Shown here: positions 8,250 through 56,019 of the stretch, in pieces
Layout of the letters: every line of letters begins with the position of its first letter
Numbering within the stretch: the first letter of the stretch is position 1
NCBI GenBank assembly: GCA_001771585.1
Contig: MEUE01000001.1
Span: forward strand, 255,789-319,788
Direction of reading: 5' to 3'
DNA length: 64,000 nucleotides
DNA from: a candidate division WOR-1 bacterium RIFOXYB2_FULL_46_45
Lineage (GTDB): Bacteria; Margulisbacteria; WOR-1; XYC2-FULL-46-14
Made by a program: the position numbers and the translations under genes
The notes under the pieces: generated by a model
Database searches by the model: none
What the model saw: the letters and a program-made list of their open reading frames with translations, nothing else
Told to the model about the DNA's origin: nothing

Positions 8250-8949
8250 CTTCCCCCCTATATTCTTCTCTGCCGCTCCTAATTATTTGCAAGCTCCTGT
8301 CTCCCTCATTAAAAAGCAGGTCGATGGTTGACATGAATGGGATAAAATCGCCGTATTGCTGGCGGTATTGCGGACAGGTATATTGCTGATACTCTAGCTT
8401 TACCCCTTCAGCTTCGAACCTGTTATCTTCATCAATGTATCCCTTTGACCCTAAGGGGGACAAATAGGTGTCCGCGCCGACTGCTTTGCAAATATTGATC
8501 AAGCGCCCTACCCGATTGCCGGTGCAATTAAGTTCGGAGCTAAAGAGCATTTTTTTGGCAAGGTTAAGCCTGGTGACGATCGTTTTGATCAGCTTAATAT
8601 TCAATTCCGCAAGCTTCGACCAACCTGTTTCATAGATCATTTCATAATCCTTAATAAGGTCCTTAAAATATGCCGCTTTCTGATAATTTTGGACAATCGA
8701 TTTAAAATGAGTTTTGCTCCAGGCGGTTGCATTGTTGATCTCAACGTCCTTCAACAGCTGCGGAAATTTTTTGACTACCGGAACCGACAGCCAGAGCTCG
8801 CCTTGCAGCGTCTTGATTCGGTTGCGCGATTGCCACGACTGTTTTTCAAACTGGACATCATCTAAAAAAACAAAAACATCACTCTGATCCATTAGGTCAA
8901 AATATCCTATCCAAGGAAGATAGGTCGGCTGCATGATCACCGCTTTCAT
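8227..8949 (-). CDS. WbqC family protein
   Basis: 240 aa; MKAVIMQPTYLPWIGYFDLMDQSDVFVFLDDVQFEKQSWQSRNRI is the WbqC signature. Confidence 0.92.
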   Translation of the reverse strand: MKAVIMQPTYLPWIGYFDLMDQSDVFVFLDDVQFEKQSWQSRNRIKTLQGELWLSVPVVKKFPQLLKDVEINNATAWSKTHFKSIVQNYQKAAYFKDLIKDYEMIYETGWSKLAELNIKLIKTIVTRLNLAKKMLFSSELNCTGNRVGRLINICKAVGADTYLSPLGSKGYIDEDNRFEAEGVKLEYQQYTCPQYRQQYGDFIPFMSTIDLLFNEGDRSLQIIRSGREEYRGEDVHNSRK

Positions 8950-50285: not shown

Positions 50286-51431
50286 TTATTTCGTAAAATA
50301 TCTTAACGCTTGAGCTGCCAACAAATCGTTCGCCGTGGCGTTTTCTCCTGTTGATTCAAATCCGGGAAGTTGTTGAAGGTTACCTGATTCCCGAAAAAAA
50401 ACAAATTGATCTTTGTCTTTCTCGGCAATTTTTGCCAGCGCTTTTCTCGCTTGAGACGATCCCGCCTTGGCAAAATTAATAAGAACCATTAATGCGTTTG
50501 CACGCAGACGGTTCCACTCCTCATCAATGCTGCTACGATATTCCCATATAGGAGCATCGGCAGACTGTGCTTGAGGATAATATTCCCCGGGAGCTTCTTC
50601 GCTCTGAATCATTTGTCGTTCCGAAAATCTATAATTAAAATCCCTATTTTCTAATATCTGCGAAAGCAACAACTCAAGCGGATTCAAATGCAATCTTATC
50701 GGCCTACGCAGAATTTTTCCAATAGTAGGATCCCTGTTGATTTGTTTTCTTTGGACTTCTAAAAACTGCTTGAGTGAAATCCACTCCCGGTACATTGGCG
50801 GGTCAAATATTTTCCAGTAAGTTCTTTCAATCTGCGATGTCCAAACAATCCCTGCGTTATCAGGCACCAGCCCGCCCTTTCCTATTACTACAAATTTTTC
50901 ATTCTTAGCTTCTTGATCTGTCCCGGCGATTAAATGATATCCGCGGCCAGAGCGGATAAATTTGCTTAACACCAGGATGTCGTGCGGTTGGCCATGAATG
51001 CTCAAAAAAAGCCCCCCGTTTTTTTTATTTGCTAAACGGAGGTCCTGACATGGAAGGAAGCCCAATAAATTAGTTACTAATATCTGCAATGTTTTTCTCA
51101 TGCCAACCCCCTGAACCCTGCCTCTTAAATGAATTCTGGCCAATACTTCCGTTTCACTTCCTATTCTTGTCCCATCTATTTGAAACAAATATTCCGGATA
51201 ATGATCCTTAAAATAAGGGCTTCGATGCTCTCTTATTATTTGATAAGCCTCTATTCCTGATTTAACAATACTTGCAGGATAAATCCTGTCAATTGGAGTT
51301 GAAACAGCTCTTGTTATTCTCCTTTGAAACGGAGCGCGCAGAACCGAAAATCCCGGCACTGAAATTTTAGTCATGTTAATTGCTCCCTTATTCCTTAGCA
51401 TTGCTTGTTTACGACCTAGCCACTTAAACAA
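50286..51431 (-). CDS. Uncharacterised protein containing acylphosphatase-like motif
   Basis: 381 aa; ARIHLRGRVQGVGMRKTLQILVTNLLG matches the acylphosphatase GRVQGVGFR motif; start overlaps the end of the 1069-aa gene by 8 nt. Confidence 0.7.
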   Translation of the reverse strand: MFKWLGRKQAMLRNKGAINMTKISVPGFSVLRAPFQRRITRAVSTPIDRIYPASIVKSGIEAYQIIREHRSPYFKDHYPEYLFQIDGTRIGSETEVLARIHLRGRVQGVGMRKTLQILVTNLLGFLPCQDLRLANKKNGGLFLSIHGQPHDILVLSKFIRSGRGYHLIAGTDQEAKNEKFVVIGKGGLVPDNAGIVWTSQIERTYWKIFDPPMYREWISLKQFLEVQRKQINRDPTIGKILRRPIRLHLNPLELLLSQILENRDFNYRFSERQMIQSEEAPGEYYPQAQSADAPIWEYRSSIDEEWNRLRANALMVLINFAKAGSSQARKALAKIAEKDKDQFVFFRESGNLQQLPGFESTGENATANDLLAAQALRYFTK

Positions 51432-54400
51432 ACCTTAATTGCGGAAATAACCATTCAACCGCGCCAAGATTTTTCTTGTTCGACACCAGCGGCAAGGCAA
51501 TTTGATCTTCTGAATCAGGATCAAAGTCCGCCGAAGAAAAGCTTCCCATTCCGACCAACATTTCGTGATCAACATTTTCTTTGCCTCCCCTATCGCCAAC
51601 TTTAACTATTTGATCAATATCCACCCCTATTCTTCCCGAAAAATCATACAAAGCCACCCCTTTATGCACCTCTGATCCGTAATCGGACGAAGTCAATATA
51701 ATACTGGCGTCGGAATAAATCGAGCTGCTTATTCTGGCCTTTAACGGAATTCCGGCATATTCCATCAAATAATTTATCAGGGCAAGCAAGTTCCCCTGCC
51801 TCATCCTTTCATGCGGCATGATCGTTATTTTATGGTCAGCAACATAGTACAAATCCTCAAAATCAAGTAAGTACCTTCTTATTAACGACATCGCCGCGGA
51901 AAGGACATACTTTGGAATTTTTCTGTCATAAAGAAGCTCGTCGGGAGAATCCAGCCTAAACCCTAAAGCCCCGACCGATGGATAAGCATAGAAACGCTGA
52001 AGTAAACTGGTATCCTTCTTTGCTTTTTCCGCCAATTTCGACAATAACATTTTATTCAATGATCCCTCCAGCCGGCCTGATATAAAAGCAACTGGAATCC
52101 CGCTCTCAGCAAAACCAAGCAGGTGGCTTATCATACGGGGCGGAACCTCCCCTTGCAGATCAGTTAAATTTTCATCAACATCAAAAATTGCCGCGCGATA
52201 CTGTTGTTCAATTGCATACGTAAATCTTGCCCACATAATTTCCGCCTGATGATCCTGTGAATAGTTGCCAGTTCCATCAACAGACGCGGAAAGATCAGCC
52301 TTTTTACGATAAAGCTCTTCTTCAATCGGGACGCTGAATCTTGTTCCGTTTTCTAATTCAATCTGGTACGTTTCTACTATTGCCGCCTCTGCAACTGTAT
52401 TGAACCCTTGTGTTTCTCTTGGGTCTGCCCCGGCAAAAGCAATCATTTTGGCTCCTTCGTCGCCAAAAAAACGAAACGACTGGAGCAGATCTATGTCTTT
52501 TCTTAAACCACTCTCCCCAATCCATCTACGTAATCTCTTTATCCCTTCAAAGAGCCGGTCTCTTCTGACAACAAACAAGCTTGCATCATGCTCACCATAC
52601 TGTCTCCTAGTTTGCGGGTCTTCTTTTGTTTGAAAAATCCCGATAACATTCCCATCCGAATCGCGCTCTATCCCCGCATAAGGATTCCCTTCCCAACAGG
52701 TCGGCATAGTTACATCCGGATCACCCAAAGCCTCGTGAATAAATAAAGCTTCACGCATGGTAGAAAGCCTCACGTTAGCAGCGTCCCCCCAAACAATCAT
52801 CACATTCTTTATAGAAGGGTCCAGGCTGTCTTCTGCCACAAGAATGGACGAACCGGTTCCCATCGGTAGGCCAACAACGGTGTTGGGGTTAATTCCGGCT
52901 TGGGACAAAGTATCTCTGATAGCAGCATCATTGTCCTCGTTGGTCAAAACGATAAAATCACGATCTATACCGCTAACCCTTCTGATCAAATGCAGTAGAG
53001 CCGGTTCTCCATTGATCGGATAAAGAGCTTTGGGATATTCTGATTTTAACCTGGTCGACTGTCCGCCGGCGGCAATCATAATTCTTACTGGAGAAATTGG
53101 CGAGTACTCTTCTAATCTTCTTATCCCCAATATTCTGTTTCCTAGGTTATGAACCCTTTCCCTTACTTCTTCAAATTTTAACGGATTTGAAAGTAAATTT
53201 TCTAAAACCATACGATCTCTTTCTAGAACTGATGAGCTTTTTGGAACAATACATCCTTCCCTGTAACAGCAATTTAAACGGTCCAATCGCTGCAAAACCA
53301 GAATTAATTTAGCGAGTTTATCGCTGACATGATGACCGGGAACGACAGAATCTTCTATGTCAGCCTCAATAACGTTAAGCCCGAGTTTTTTTAAATCTTC
53401 GATATCTATTGGAATATGGGTTTTTCCCCCGTTGATATCCACCCTGTACCCGTGAGTATTTACTATCACATAATCCAATAGGTCGTGAATAAAAGTGTCT
53501 TTCCTAAGCTCGGCTTGAAATAAAGACTCCATTGTTAAAAGCTGTTCACTGGCAGTTCTCTTTCCCCGTTCCCGCACAAGGTTTAAAATGCAAACCTTCA
53601 AAGCCAGACTACTCTTATAGTCCGAAGGGAAACGTTTTGTCTTTATGGTTGGAGCTAAGCTGGAACTGAATGTTGTCGGGGCAAACACTAAAACATCGGC
53701 AGACATGGCTATCCGTGCTTCCGCGGACAATTCTATCGCCACATCTCTTTCTTCTAAAAACCTCTTTTTTTCTTCAACTGTTTTCATTTGACCCAATGCG
53801 TCTATCTCTTTTTTTGAAGCTGGCTTGGCCAAAAGATAAGTGTTGTCGATTTCCTGTTCTAAAAGCCGGTCAACAATCTCTGCCTCGGAAGCCAAAAACT
53901 CACCTTTTTCCGTCAAGGCCACCAACCAAAGTGATTGTGAATCGTTTAAAATTATTCTCCCTCTTACCCCCAATAATCCGCTTAGCTCTTCAATCGCCGT
54001 ATTGTATCTGCCGTTTTTCATATACACCCCTGTAAAAACAAGGTTGCGAACCCCAAAATCCCGTAAATCGTAATCCGGAGAAACCCGCAAGGCACGGCGG
54101 TAAAAATATTTCAAATAAGATCGGAAGCTCTCTCGCACTCCAGCCGGCAAAAGATAAAAGGCCTTTTCAAAATCCGTTCCCCCCGGATCTTCGCAAGTTG
54201 TAATGCGCCGTAAAGATTCCAAATGCTCCGCGGGAGAAAACGACTTTGAAAGTCTCATGCCCAAAAACAGCTTTATAGCGGAAGATCCCTCCATCTGCGG
54301 ATCTAGCAAGTTTACAATATTTTTTGCTATGTCCGAGGGACCAAGCATATTAAAATCATGCCTTATCTTCCCGGTGCTTTTTCCGTCATCATAAGCGTTA

Positions 54401-54633
54401 AGAAGAACAGACAAATCAACCCCGCTAACATCCGCCAGAGAAGAGGAAAGCCCGTTTGATCCGGTCCCGCCGGAAAAGAGCGTAACAGAACAGCTTGCCT
54501 GCGAGATCCATAGTTTATCGAAAAGGCCGACCAACCCTTCGGAAGAAATTTTTTGTCCCACCAGCCTGCCAATAATTTTATTCGTGCCTAATGTTTGCGC
54601 CACCACGGCGGAATGCACTCTAACACTTGTCAT
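51424..54633 (-). CDS. Trifunctional fusion: YvcK/GlmR(CofD)-like domain + GlmU-like nucleotidyltransferase + HAD phosphatase
   Basis: 1069 aa; N-term VTLFSGGTGSNGL...YDDGKSTGKIRHDFNMLGPSDIAKNIVNLLD; middle RIMIAAGGQSTRLKSEYPKALYPINGEPALLHLI; C-term AIFDVDENLTDLQG...VKVGDRGGKENVDHEMLV. Confidence 0.85.
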   Translation of the reverse strand: MTSVRVHSAVVAQTLGTNKIIGRLVGQKISSEGLVGLFDKLWISQASCSVTLFSGGTGSNGLSSSLADVSGVDLSVLLNAYDDGKSTGKIRHDFNMLGPSDIAKNIVNLLDPQMEGSSAIKLFLGMRLSKSFSPAEHLESLRRITTCEDPGGTDFEKAFYLLPAGVRESFRSYLKYFYRRALRVSPDYDLRDFGVRNLVFTGVYMKNGRYNTAIEELSGLLGVRGRIILNDSQSLWLVALTEKGEFLASEAEIVDRLLEQEIDNTYLLAKPASKKEIDALGQMKTVEEKKRFLEERDVAIELSAEARIAMSADVLVFAPTTFSSSLAPTIKTKRFPSDYKSSLALKVCILNLVRERGKRTASEQLLTMESLFQAELRKDTFIHDLLDYVIVNTHGYRVDINGGKTHIPIDIEDLKKLGLNVIEADIEDSVVPGHHVSDKLAKLILVLQRLDRLNCCYREGCIVPKSSSVLERDRMVLENLLSNPLKFEEVRERVHNLGNRILGIRRLEEYSPISPVRIMIAAGGQSTRLKSEYPKALYPINGEPALLHLIRRVSGIDRDFIVLTNEDNDAAIRDTLSQAGINPNTVVGLPMGTGSSILVAEDSLDPSIKNVMIVWGDAANVRLSTMREALFIHEALGDPDVTMPTCWEGNPYAGIERDSDGNVIGIFQTKEDPQTRRQYGEHDASLFVVRRDRLFEGIKRLRRWIGESGLRKDIDLLQSFRFFGDEGAKMIAFAGADPRETQGFNTVAEAAIVETYQIELENGTRFSVPIEEELYRKKADLSASVDGTGNYSQDHQAEIMWARFTYAIEQQYRAAIFDVDENLTDLQGEVPPRMISHLLGFAESGIPVAFISGRLEGSLNKMLLSKLAEKAKKDTSLLQRFYAYPSVGALGFRLDSPDELLYDRKIPKYVLSAAMSLIRRYLLDFEDLYYVADHKITIMPHERMRQGNLLALINYLMEYAGIPLKARISSSIYSDASIILTSSDYGSEVHKGVALYDFSGRIGVDIDQIVKVGDRGGKENVDHEMLVGMGSFSSADFDPDSEDQIALPLVSNKKNLGAVEWLFPQLRFV

Positions 54634-54835: not shown

Positions 54836-55477
54836 CTACCCGCTAAAACAACCCCCGTCACTAAACCCTCCCCCCGAATTACCATCGCTATCGCCTCCCC
54901 CATCATAACCACCGGAAGAATCTCCCCAAGATCCCTCGCTTGCCCCATAAGAATCTTCTCCTCCCATTGCCCCACCAACAGAATCGCTCCCGCCAGAATA
55001 ACCACTACTAGTACTTCCTCCCCCTTCTCCATAATCCCCCATTCCTCGGTCTTCCGACTCATAGCTTCCCTCCCCTGTTGAAGCCACAATATTTTTTGGC
55101 ATAATAACCGGTGAGAATAAAACCCCCTGTTGTACAAGGCTTTCCTGGTATTTCCTTGATGGCTGGTCGCACAAAATATCAAGGATTTTTTTTATTTGCT
55201 TTTGTTCTGTTCCTTTGGAAAAAGTAATTTTTAGGATTCCTGCCTTATAGAGATTTTTAGCATAATAATTGGAGGCCACAATTGGAATATTTTCTTTTTC
55301 CGTGTACAAACCATCCGGCTTAACCAATAAATCAACATCTCCAAGGACACCGATCCCCCAAATCGCGGCACAAACCTTACTTGCCCCACGAGTAAAAGTG
55401 GCACTATTAAACAACAACCTTGGCCAAGAAATATTTCTTTGTGATCCAAGAAAAGAAACATTAGCTGTTTTTAACAT
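54836..55477 (-). CDS. Hypothetical protein with long Gly/Ser/Asp-rich low-complexity C-terminus
   Basis: 213 aa; tail EGSYESEDRGMGDYGEGGGSTSSGYSGGSDSVGG...GGGFSDGGCFSG. Confidence 0.6.
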   Translation of the reverse strand: MLKTANVSFLGSQRNISWPRLLFNSATFTRGASKVCAAIWGIGVLGDVDLLVKPDGLYTEKENIPIVASNYYAKNLYKAGILKITFSKGTEQKQIKKILDILCDQPSRKYQESLVQQGVLFSPVIMPKNIVASTGEGSYESEDRGMGDYGEGGGSTSSGYSGGSDSVGGAMGGEDSYGASEGSWGDSSGGYDGGGDSDGNSGGGFSDGGCFSG

Positions 55478-56019
55478 GTTGTTCCCCCCTTTTTTGTCTT
55501 CACCATCTTCCGAACAATCTTCGCTAAACCTTCCGCTTCATCCTTCATCTTTTTGATCAGATCAAAATCCTCAACCATCGCGTCCAGCTGCTCCAACAAT
55601 TTATGGCAGTAACTTATTTCTTTTTTCGCCTCCTCTAAAATCGTCTCCTGGTCTTCCGTATCGACACTGTGTTTTGCAACCAGCAAATGGACCCGGTAAA
55701 CATCCGTCGCAAACAGGAGCGAAGATTCAATCAAGTGGTGGATCGGCTCCCTAAGATCGATTCTTTCCTCCATTTGTCCGGCCATAACAATCGCCATCTT
55801 TCCAAAGCCAAACGCCTTTTCAATGCAGGGATTGGCCGCCCTCTCTTTTTCCAGCGTTCCGATAAAAGAATTTAAGGTCGGAAGGTTTTGATCTTCAAAT
55901 ATCTCTTCTTGTTGAATTAAATCGCTCATGTATCGGTACCAGCAATTTTCGCGCCGTAAAATCACGCTTGCGTCCCCTCCAATCTGTAGCCCTTTCATTA
56001 CATCCCTGTAGAAAAACAC
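55471..56019 (-). CDS. Hypothetical protein; putative helical protein (start possibly 55998)
   Basis: 182 aa; overlaps the downstream 213-aa gene; no family recognised. Confidence 0.6.
   Translation of the reverse strand: MFFYRDVMKGLQIGGDASVILRRENCWYRYMSDLIQQEEIFEDQNLPTLNSFIGTLEKERAANPCIEKAFGFGKMAIVMAGQMEERIDLREPIHHLIESSLLFATDVYRVHLLVAKHSVDTEDQETILEEAKKEISYCHKLLEQLDAMVEDFDLIKKMKDEAEGLAKIVRKMVKTKKGGTTC

Follow-up and report, generated by a model that had tools for sequence, protein, structure and literature searches.

A YvcK/CofD, GlmU-like and HAD fusion protein in a candidate division WOR-1 bacterium, a possible enzyme for making and passing on an activated sugar phosphate

We analysed a window of 64,000 nucleotides, the whole stretch of DNA under study (contig MEUE01000001.1 of candidate division WOR-1 bacterium RIFOXYB2_FULL_46_45, positions 255,789 to 319,788), in which a gene at 51424..54633 on the minus strand encodes a three-domain protein of 1069 aa, here called P0001. 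The gene is a single open reading frame that runs from an ATG at 54633 down to 51424 with no internal stop, and a Shine-Dalgarno-like AGAGGG lies just 5' of the ATG. The protein comprises, all on the minus strand, a YvcK/CofD-fold domain (residues 47-450, 53284..54495; assigned by Pfam CofD, PDB profile search and Foldseek), a helical linker (451-514, 53092..53283; from the model and an alignment of four triple fusions), a GlmU-like nucleotidyltransferase (NT) domain (515-770, 52324..53091; NCBIfam GlmU, PDB profile, Foldseek and alignment) and a HAD-IIB domain of the phosphomannomutase (PMM)/alpha-phosphoglucomutase (alpha-PGM) type (795-1069, 51427..52251; profile, model and Foldseek). An initial annotation, made from the letters of the window, had described a fusion of this kind. 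Its coordinates and its single 1069-aa frame are correct, the strand being minus, and every motif it quoted is found in P0001, at residues 81-111 (YDDGKSTGKIRHDFNMLGPSDIAKNIVNLLD), 521-550 (AAGGQSTRLKSEYPKALYPINGEPALLHLI), 817-825 (FDVDENLTD) and 1013-1025 (GDRGGKENVDHEM). Profile searches and a confident AlphaFold2 model of the full-length chain (mean pLDDT, the predicted local distance difference test score, 89; predicted template modelling score 0.87; 42-row alignment) returned all three of its domains.

The N-terminal domain matches Pfam CofD above cut-off (residues 50-426, E 6e-28). A profile of 41 YvcK/CofD-type domains compared with PDB reached YvcK (2ppv/2hzb) at E ~1e-37 and CofD (3c3d) at 7e-4, and Foldseek matched the domain to YvcK 2hzb (TM-score 0.86 over the target). 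The CofD/YvcK-like fold named in the initial annotation is thus confirmed, and this unit is nearest YvcK/GlmR rather than the CofD of F420 synthesis. The region of the active site is under strong constraint: across the 41 sequences, which come from bacteria and phages, 23 positions are invariant, among them N79, D82, G84, T87, G88, R91, D101, K104, R127, D192, N197, E250 and N351. D82 and D83 sit at the positions of D40 and D41 in GlmR, a uridyltransferase that makes UDP-GlcNAc from UTP and GlcNAc-1-phosphate; the D40A/D41A/N198A triple mutant of Listeria GlmR loses about 100-fold of this activity (PMC10128056). P0001 shares with YvcK/GlmR (UPF0052, TIGR01826) the fold, the glycine-rich loop and the catalytic Asp pair. 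However, it scores 77.7 bits versus the TIGR01826 cut-off of 196, carries motifs of the type NAYDDGxSTG and LGPSDxxKN versus VADDGGSSG and PPGDIRN in GlmR, and is fused to NT and HAD domains.

A second known system that resembles P0001 is the CofC-CofD pair of coenzyme F420 synthesis. There, CofC uses a nucleotide to activate a phospho-compound, and CofD receives this labile product and carries out the transfer (PMC8764529). The arrangement would be matched by a CofD-fold domain that works together with an NTP-transferase domain, and the Asn of NAYDD in P0001 lies where the matching motif of the solved CofD begins, but the NT of P0001 is GlmU-like and not CofC. A role for P0001 in F420 synthesis was rejected, since its genome yielded no F420 ligase (PF01996) and matched the CofG model only far below cut-off; no F420_cofD match was listed for P0001 in the NCBIfam search.

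The NT domain matches Pfam NTP_transf_3 above cut-off (E 4e-9) and NCBIfam GlmU over residues 517-756 (E 1e-19, 70 bits versus a cut-off of 367). GlmU is the best PDB match for a profile of 34 such nucleotidyltransferases (6e-30) and is also the Foldseek match. The domain has the fold and the nucleotide-binding residues of the N-terminal pyrophosphorylase of GlmU: K535, D617 and N745 are kept at the positions of K25, D105 and N227. However, P0001 has no acetyltransferase half, scores far below the GlmU equivalog cut-off and has Asp in place of the Asn at the sugar site of GlmU. K25 and D105 of GlmU are described in PMC10128056.

The C-terminal domain carries HAD motifs I-IV, with residues D818, D820, S852, K991, D1014 and D1022, of which the first two and the last three are invariant in 20/20 HAD domains. 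P0001 matches NCBIfam HAD-IIB at residues 816-1026 below the curated cut-off (E 4.5e-4). Pfam Hydrolase_3 is weak on P0001 alone (E 0.009, below cut-off) and strong in two homologous fusions described below (6e-14 in L074, 9e-9 in L039). A profile of the 20 domains, taken from four triple fusions and 16 phage proteins, matched PDB structures over core and cap in the order phosphomannomutase (6e-14), Lactococcus lactis alpha-PGM 4bnd (4e-12) and best phosphatase (1e-5). Full-length alignments that included phage HAD rows misplaced them, and the domain was therefore folded separately (pLDDT 94). Foldseek ranked PMM/alpha-PGM first for this model, but trehalose-phosphatase and further HAD phosphatases scored nearly as well; mutase and phosphatase are therefore not separated by the fold search on its own. 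By its sequence profile, the domain is nearest the HAD phosphomannomutase/alpha-phosphoglucomutase group, and it shares with PMM1/2 and 4bnd the HAD-IIB core and cap, motifs I-IV and the wide spacing of the motif IV Asp residues. The 'HAD phosphatase' of the initial annotation therefore stands as a HAD domain with its catalytic residues; dephosphorylation is not established, and the profile lies nearest the HAD phosphohexomutases. We did not follow a phosphatase-only reading, given the preference of the sequence profile for PMM.

We looked for the same architecture elsewhere. A back-translated search with the P0001 sequence alone gave no match in the genomes or viral contigs, and an alignment that included a relative from a Candidatus Margulisiibacteriota metagenome-assembled genome of the same phylum as P0001 (G058, JABSQL010000004.1) was needed. 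The triple fusion occurs in 1/74 genomes of its own phylum, that of P0001, and in 2/384 genomes of an even draw of Omnitrophota. In total the YvcK/CofD-NT-HAD order recurs inside giant proteins of three Omnitrophota genomes (L039, L074 and L040). In L039 the unit is part of a 2905-aa protein, and in L074 it lies in a 9814-aa frame that also contains a GT2 domain. In L040 (6747-12915) the order is cytidylate kinase, YvcK/CofD, NT, HAD, guanylate kinase and DUF218; a two-base NN gap at 8787-8788 breaks the frame between the cytidylate kinase/YvcK part and the remainder, and the units probably form one protein. Domain order and inter-domain linkers are kept in all four genomes, hence P0001 is not an assembly artefact. 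The initial annotation knew of no described protein with this architecture. We likewise found no paper describing it in the open-access literature searched, but the architecture is not unique to P0001. In a tree of YvcK/CofD domains P0001 groups with L039 and L074 (92/86, or 97/92 when a Ktedonobacteraceae sequence is added) and apart from the Margulisiibacteriota relative L058, a placement that suggests lateral transfer. The L074 frame (also L101; unit at about 69307-72372 of G076:C3) further holds PLP-enzyme, phosphodiester glycosidase-like, HD, second HAD and PI3/4-kinase-like domains besides GT2.

In other bacteria the same parts are found as neighbouring genes. Our genome scan used the YvcK/CofD domain only, so partner genes were not selected for. 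With the triple fusions left out, 28/33 distinct bacterial YvcK/CofD-like loci have an NT gene no more than 6.5 kb away, a count made with cut-offs of 1e-3 to 1e-5 on fragmentary contigs; the five loci without one (L042, L053, L070, L075 and L078) all lie close to a contig end, at a distance of at most about 2.2 kb. In 21/33 loci there is a HAD gene nearby. Twenty of these HADs belong to subfamily IA, two of which were tested and best matched TIGR02009, and one (L042) is PMM-like, as in phages. We do not claim a mutase role for the separate HADs, on which phosphatases score as well. YvcK-type paralogs of the own phylum, taken as controls, have an NT or HAD neighbour in 0/4 cases. In most bacterial loci a GT2 gene is fused to the YvcK/CofD gene or next door, and a second GT2, an epimerase, a methyltransferase and a radical SAM protein are frequent flanking genes. 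The linkage is ancient and repeated, with loci in Pseudomonadota, Myxococcota, Acidobacteriota, Bdellovibrionota, Armatimonadota, Binatota, Chloroflexota and Margulisiibacteriota. The fused GT2-like domain often has no usual DXD. A cluster of radical SAM, methyltransferase, NT, YvcK/CofD-GT2 and GT2 genes is common to Margulisiibacteriota (L038/L058, 1865-7835) and Magnetococcales (L060, 7947-16866).

Relatives are also present in phages. On 17 distinct IMG/VR contigs we found a YvcK/CofD-HAD fusion in 17/17 and an NT in 16/17, accompanied by a relative of T4 beta-glucosyltransferase in 15 (PF09198 4.6e-17, PHROG 2e-50), a thymidylate-kinase-like gene in 13, a guanylate kinase in nine and a thymidylate-synthase-fold gene in six. 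Of 50,697 deposited phage records a single one matched, LR756500.1, an unannotated entry of 462 kb. In the 13.8 kb examined, its YvcK/CofD-HAD fusion is accompanied by the NT, the synthase-like gene and both kinases, but a glucosyltransferase was not found there. PHROG returned no match for two YvcK/CofD-HAD fusions and the NT tested, and no YvcK/CofD match was evident among the best 50 in a viral structure library. The neighbourhood looks like one for DNA base modification. The set as a whole (L079-L099 and L105) is a probable DNA hypermodification module. It resembles the DNA glucosylation system of T4, but T4 uses host UDP-glucose, whereas an NT and a YvcK/CofD-HAD protein are encoded by these phages themselves. 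The phosphoglucuronate DNA of SP-15 was considered as a model for a phosphodiester-linked sugar; the SP-15 paper names a different gene set and mentions no YvcK/UPF0052 protein (PMC5977210).

Overall, we suggest, with a confidence only a little past even, that P0001 is an enzyme with several activities, which together produce a nucleotide-activated sugar phosphate and pass it on, and that it is not an envelope sensor. The HAD domain would supply the right sugar phosphate, most simply by acting as a phosphohexomutase that converts hexose-6-phosphate to hexose-1-phosphate, or alternatively by a phosphatase step. The GlmU-like domain would then couple the sugar-1-phosphate to an NTP, giving an NDP-sugar. 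The YvcK/CofD-fold domain would be its catalytic partner, as CofD is for CofC, and would transfer the phospho-moiety of the intermediate to an acceptor or remodel the intermediate; by analogy, the pair fits the CofC-to-CofD logic with a sugar-1-phosphate. The product would feed a glycosyltransferase, and having the parts fused, or their genes closely paired, would allow the intermediate to be channelled. For P0001 we infer each reaction and their order, as well as the sugar, the nucleotide and the acceptor. A link to activated-sugar metabolism, already proposed in the initial annotation, finds support in the GlmU-like domain and in the consistent presence of glycosyltransferases beside the relatives. 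Moreover, the genome of P0001 encodes a GlmU-type NT of its own (L033), GlmS and a separate YvcK-like paralog, and P0001 is thus an additional, specialised enzyme.

Several observations weigh against this proposal. PF03332 is silent on the HAD domain of P0001, and the second-phosphate arginines of PMM are not clearly aligned or conserved there, which sets it apart from PMM1/2 and 4bnd. For the separate HADs of other bacteria, the matches to subfamily IA phosphatases, pyrophosphatases and CbbY roughly equal or surpass that to beta-phosphoglucomutase. The comparison with CofC/CofD is an analogy, P0001 being nearer YvcK than CofD. No glycosyltransferase gene adjoins P0001 within the window, whose polysaccharide and sugar-nucleotide cluster ends some 20 kb away. 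In the YvcK/CofD domain, the second Asp is not constant among phages (29 D, 10 N and 2 A across the family), and the position of GlmR N198, inferred from the LPN motif in a profile alignment, is T329 in P0001. These last two points bear equally on the idea that the domain is a second sugar-1-phosphate uridylyltransferase of the GlmR type, which would give P0001 two pyrophosphorylase units besides its HAD domain, for example to serve two sugars or to provide a back-up. YvcK/GlmR being the nearest solved relatives, D82/D83 being kept and the known reaction of GlmR all speak for it. However, the YvcK/CofD domain is steadily paired with a dedicated GlmU-like NT, so duplicate uridylyltransferase activity is unlikely.

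We regard as similarly unlikely a pathway with the same enzyme set in which the HAD is a phosphatase on a bisphosphate or phosphorylated product, as in GmhB and sucrose-phosphate phosphatase, and the order is kinase, phosphatase, NT and YvcK/CofD. The HAD-IIB fold is common to phosphatases and the Foldseek scores are close, the separate bacterial HADs resemble phosphatases, the module in L040 lies between cytidylate- and guanylate-kinase-like units, and in phages it is accompanied by kinase genes; with the fused-HAD sequence profile, however, the E-value for PMM/alpha-PGM is better than that for phosphatases by some eight orders of magnitude. The model of the initial annotation, in which sensing of UDP-GlcNAc by the YvcK domain adjusts synthesis and dephosphorylation and so controls envelope precursors, is improbable. 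It has in its favour the YvcK/GlmR homology and the presence of GlmS and a GlmU-type NT in the genome. However, R301 of Bacillus subtilis GlmR is needed for UDP-GlcNAc binding and forms the sensing site with Y265 (PMC7525490), while in P0001 the R301 position is H434 and Y265 has no conserved counterpart, in a region where the alignment is loose. RapZ/YvcJ (PF03668) was searched for in the genome at E 0.001 and gave no match, with the control list silent in some genomes expected to hold RapZ/YvcJ. Phage members, in turn, have genes of nucleotide metabolism and DNA-glucosyltransferase-like genes as neighbours, a setting in which control of the cell wall would hardly be meaningful. The missing sensing residues, the undetected RapZ/YvcJ and the phage occurrence together disfavour both sensing and control of GlmS. 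That P0001 is a gene-fusion artefact or a decaying pseudo-enzyme with no coherent function we consider very improbable: the fusion is rare in its own phylum, but four genomes share the domain order at 35-49% identity with catalytic residues intact, and the full-length model is confident.

Returning to an enzyme of activated-sugar synthesis and transfer, the three parts recurring beside glycosyltransferases point to a route, apparently not described before, by which an activated sugar is made and handed on. More tentatively, and with clear doubt, the parts may form a pathway of three steps in which a nucleotide-activated sugar is made and then transferred as a sugar phosphate, giving a phosphodiester-type glycoconjugate, for surface glycans in bacteria and DNA hypermodification in large phages, with P0001 as its single-chain version. 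YvcK/GlmR and CofD are known as a wall-precursor uridyltransferase and regulator and as a cofactor enzyme, respectively. A third widespread branch, nearly always with its own NT and often with a HAD partner, would establish activated-sugar chemistry as a new general function of the fold, and the phage branch predicts a new kind of sugar-modified phage DNA. As a single chain, P0001 would be a convenient reagent for finding the reaction.

Elsewhere in the genome, the YvcK-like paralog mentioned above, a YvcK/GAK-like protein (L032, 5937-11429), lies between genes read as phosphoglucose isomerase, phosphohexomutase and phosphofructokinase. Upstream of P0001, at 54836-56019, are two genes without assigned function, one with a Gly/Ser-rich tail. 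Downstream, a 381-aa protein with no family assigned (50286..51431, minus strand) overlaps the end of the P0001 gene by 8 bases. It gave nothing above cut-off in Pfam or NCBIfam and has one weak relative among 57 genomes. The gene is probably co-transcribed with that of P0001, its neighbour, and is at most a candidate member of the system. Its product holds a short acylphosphatase-like RVQGVGMR stretch (E 0.13).

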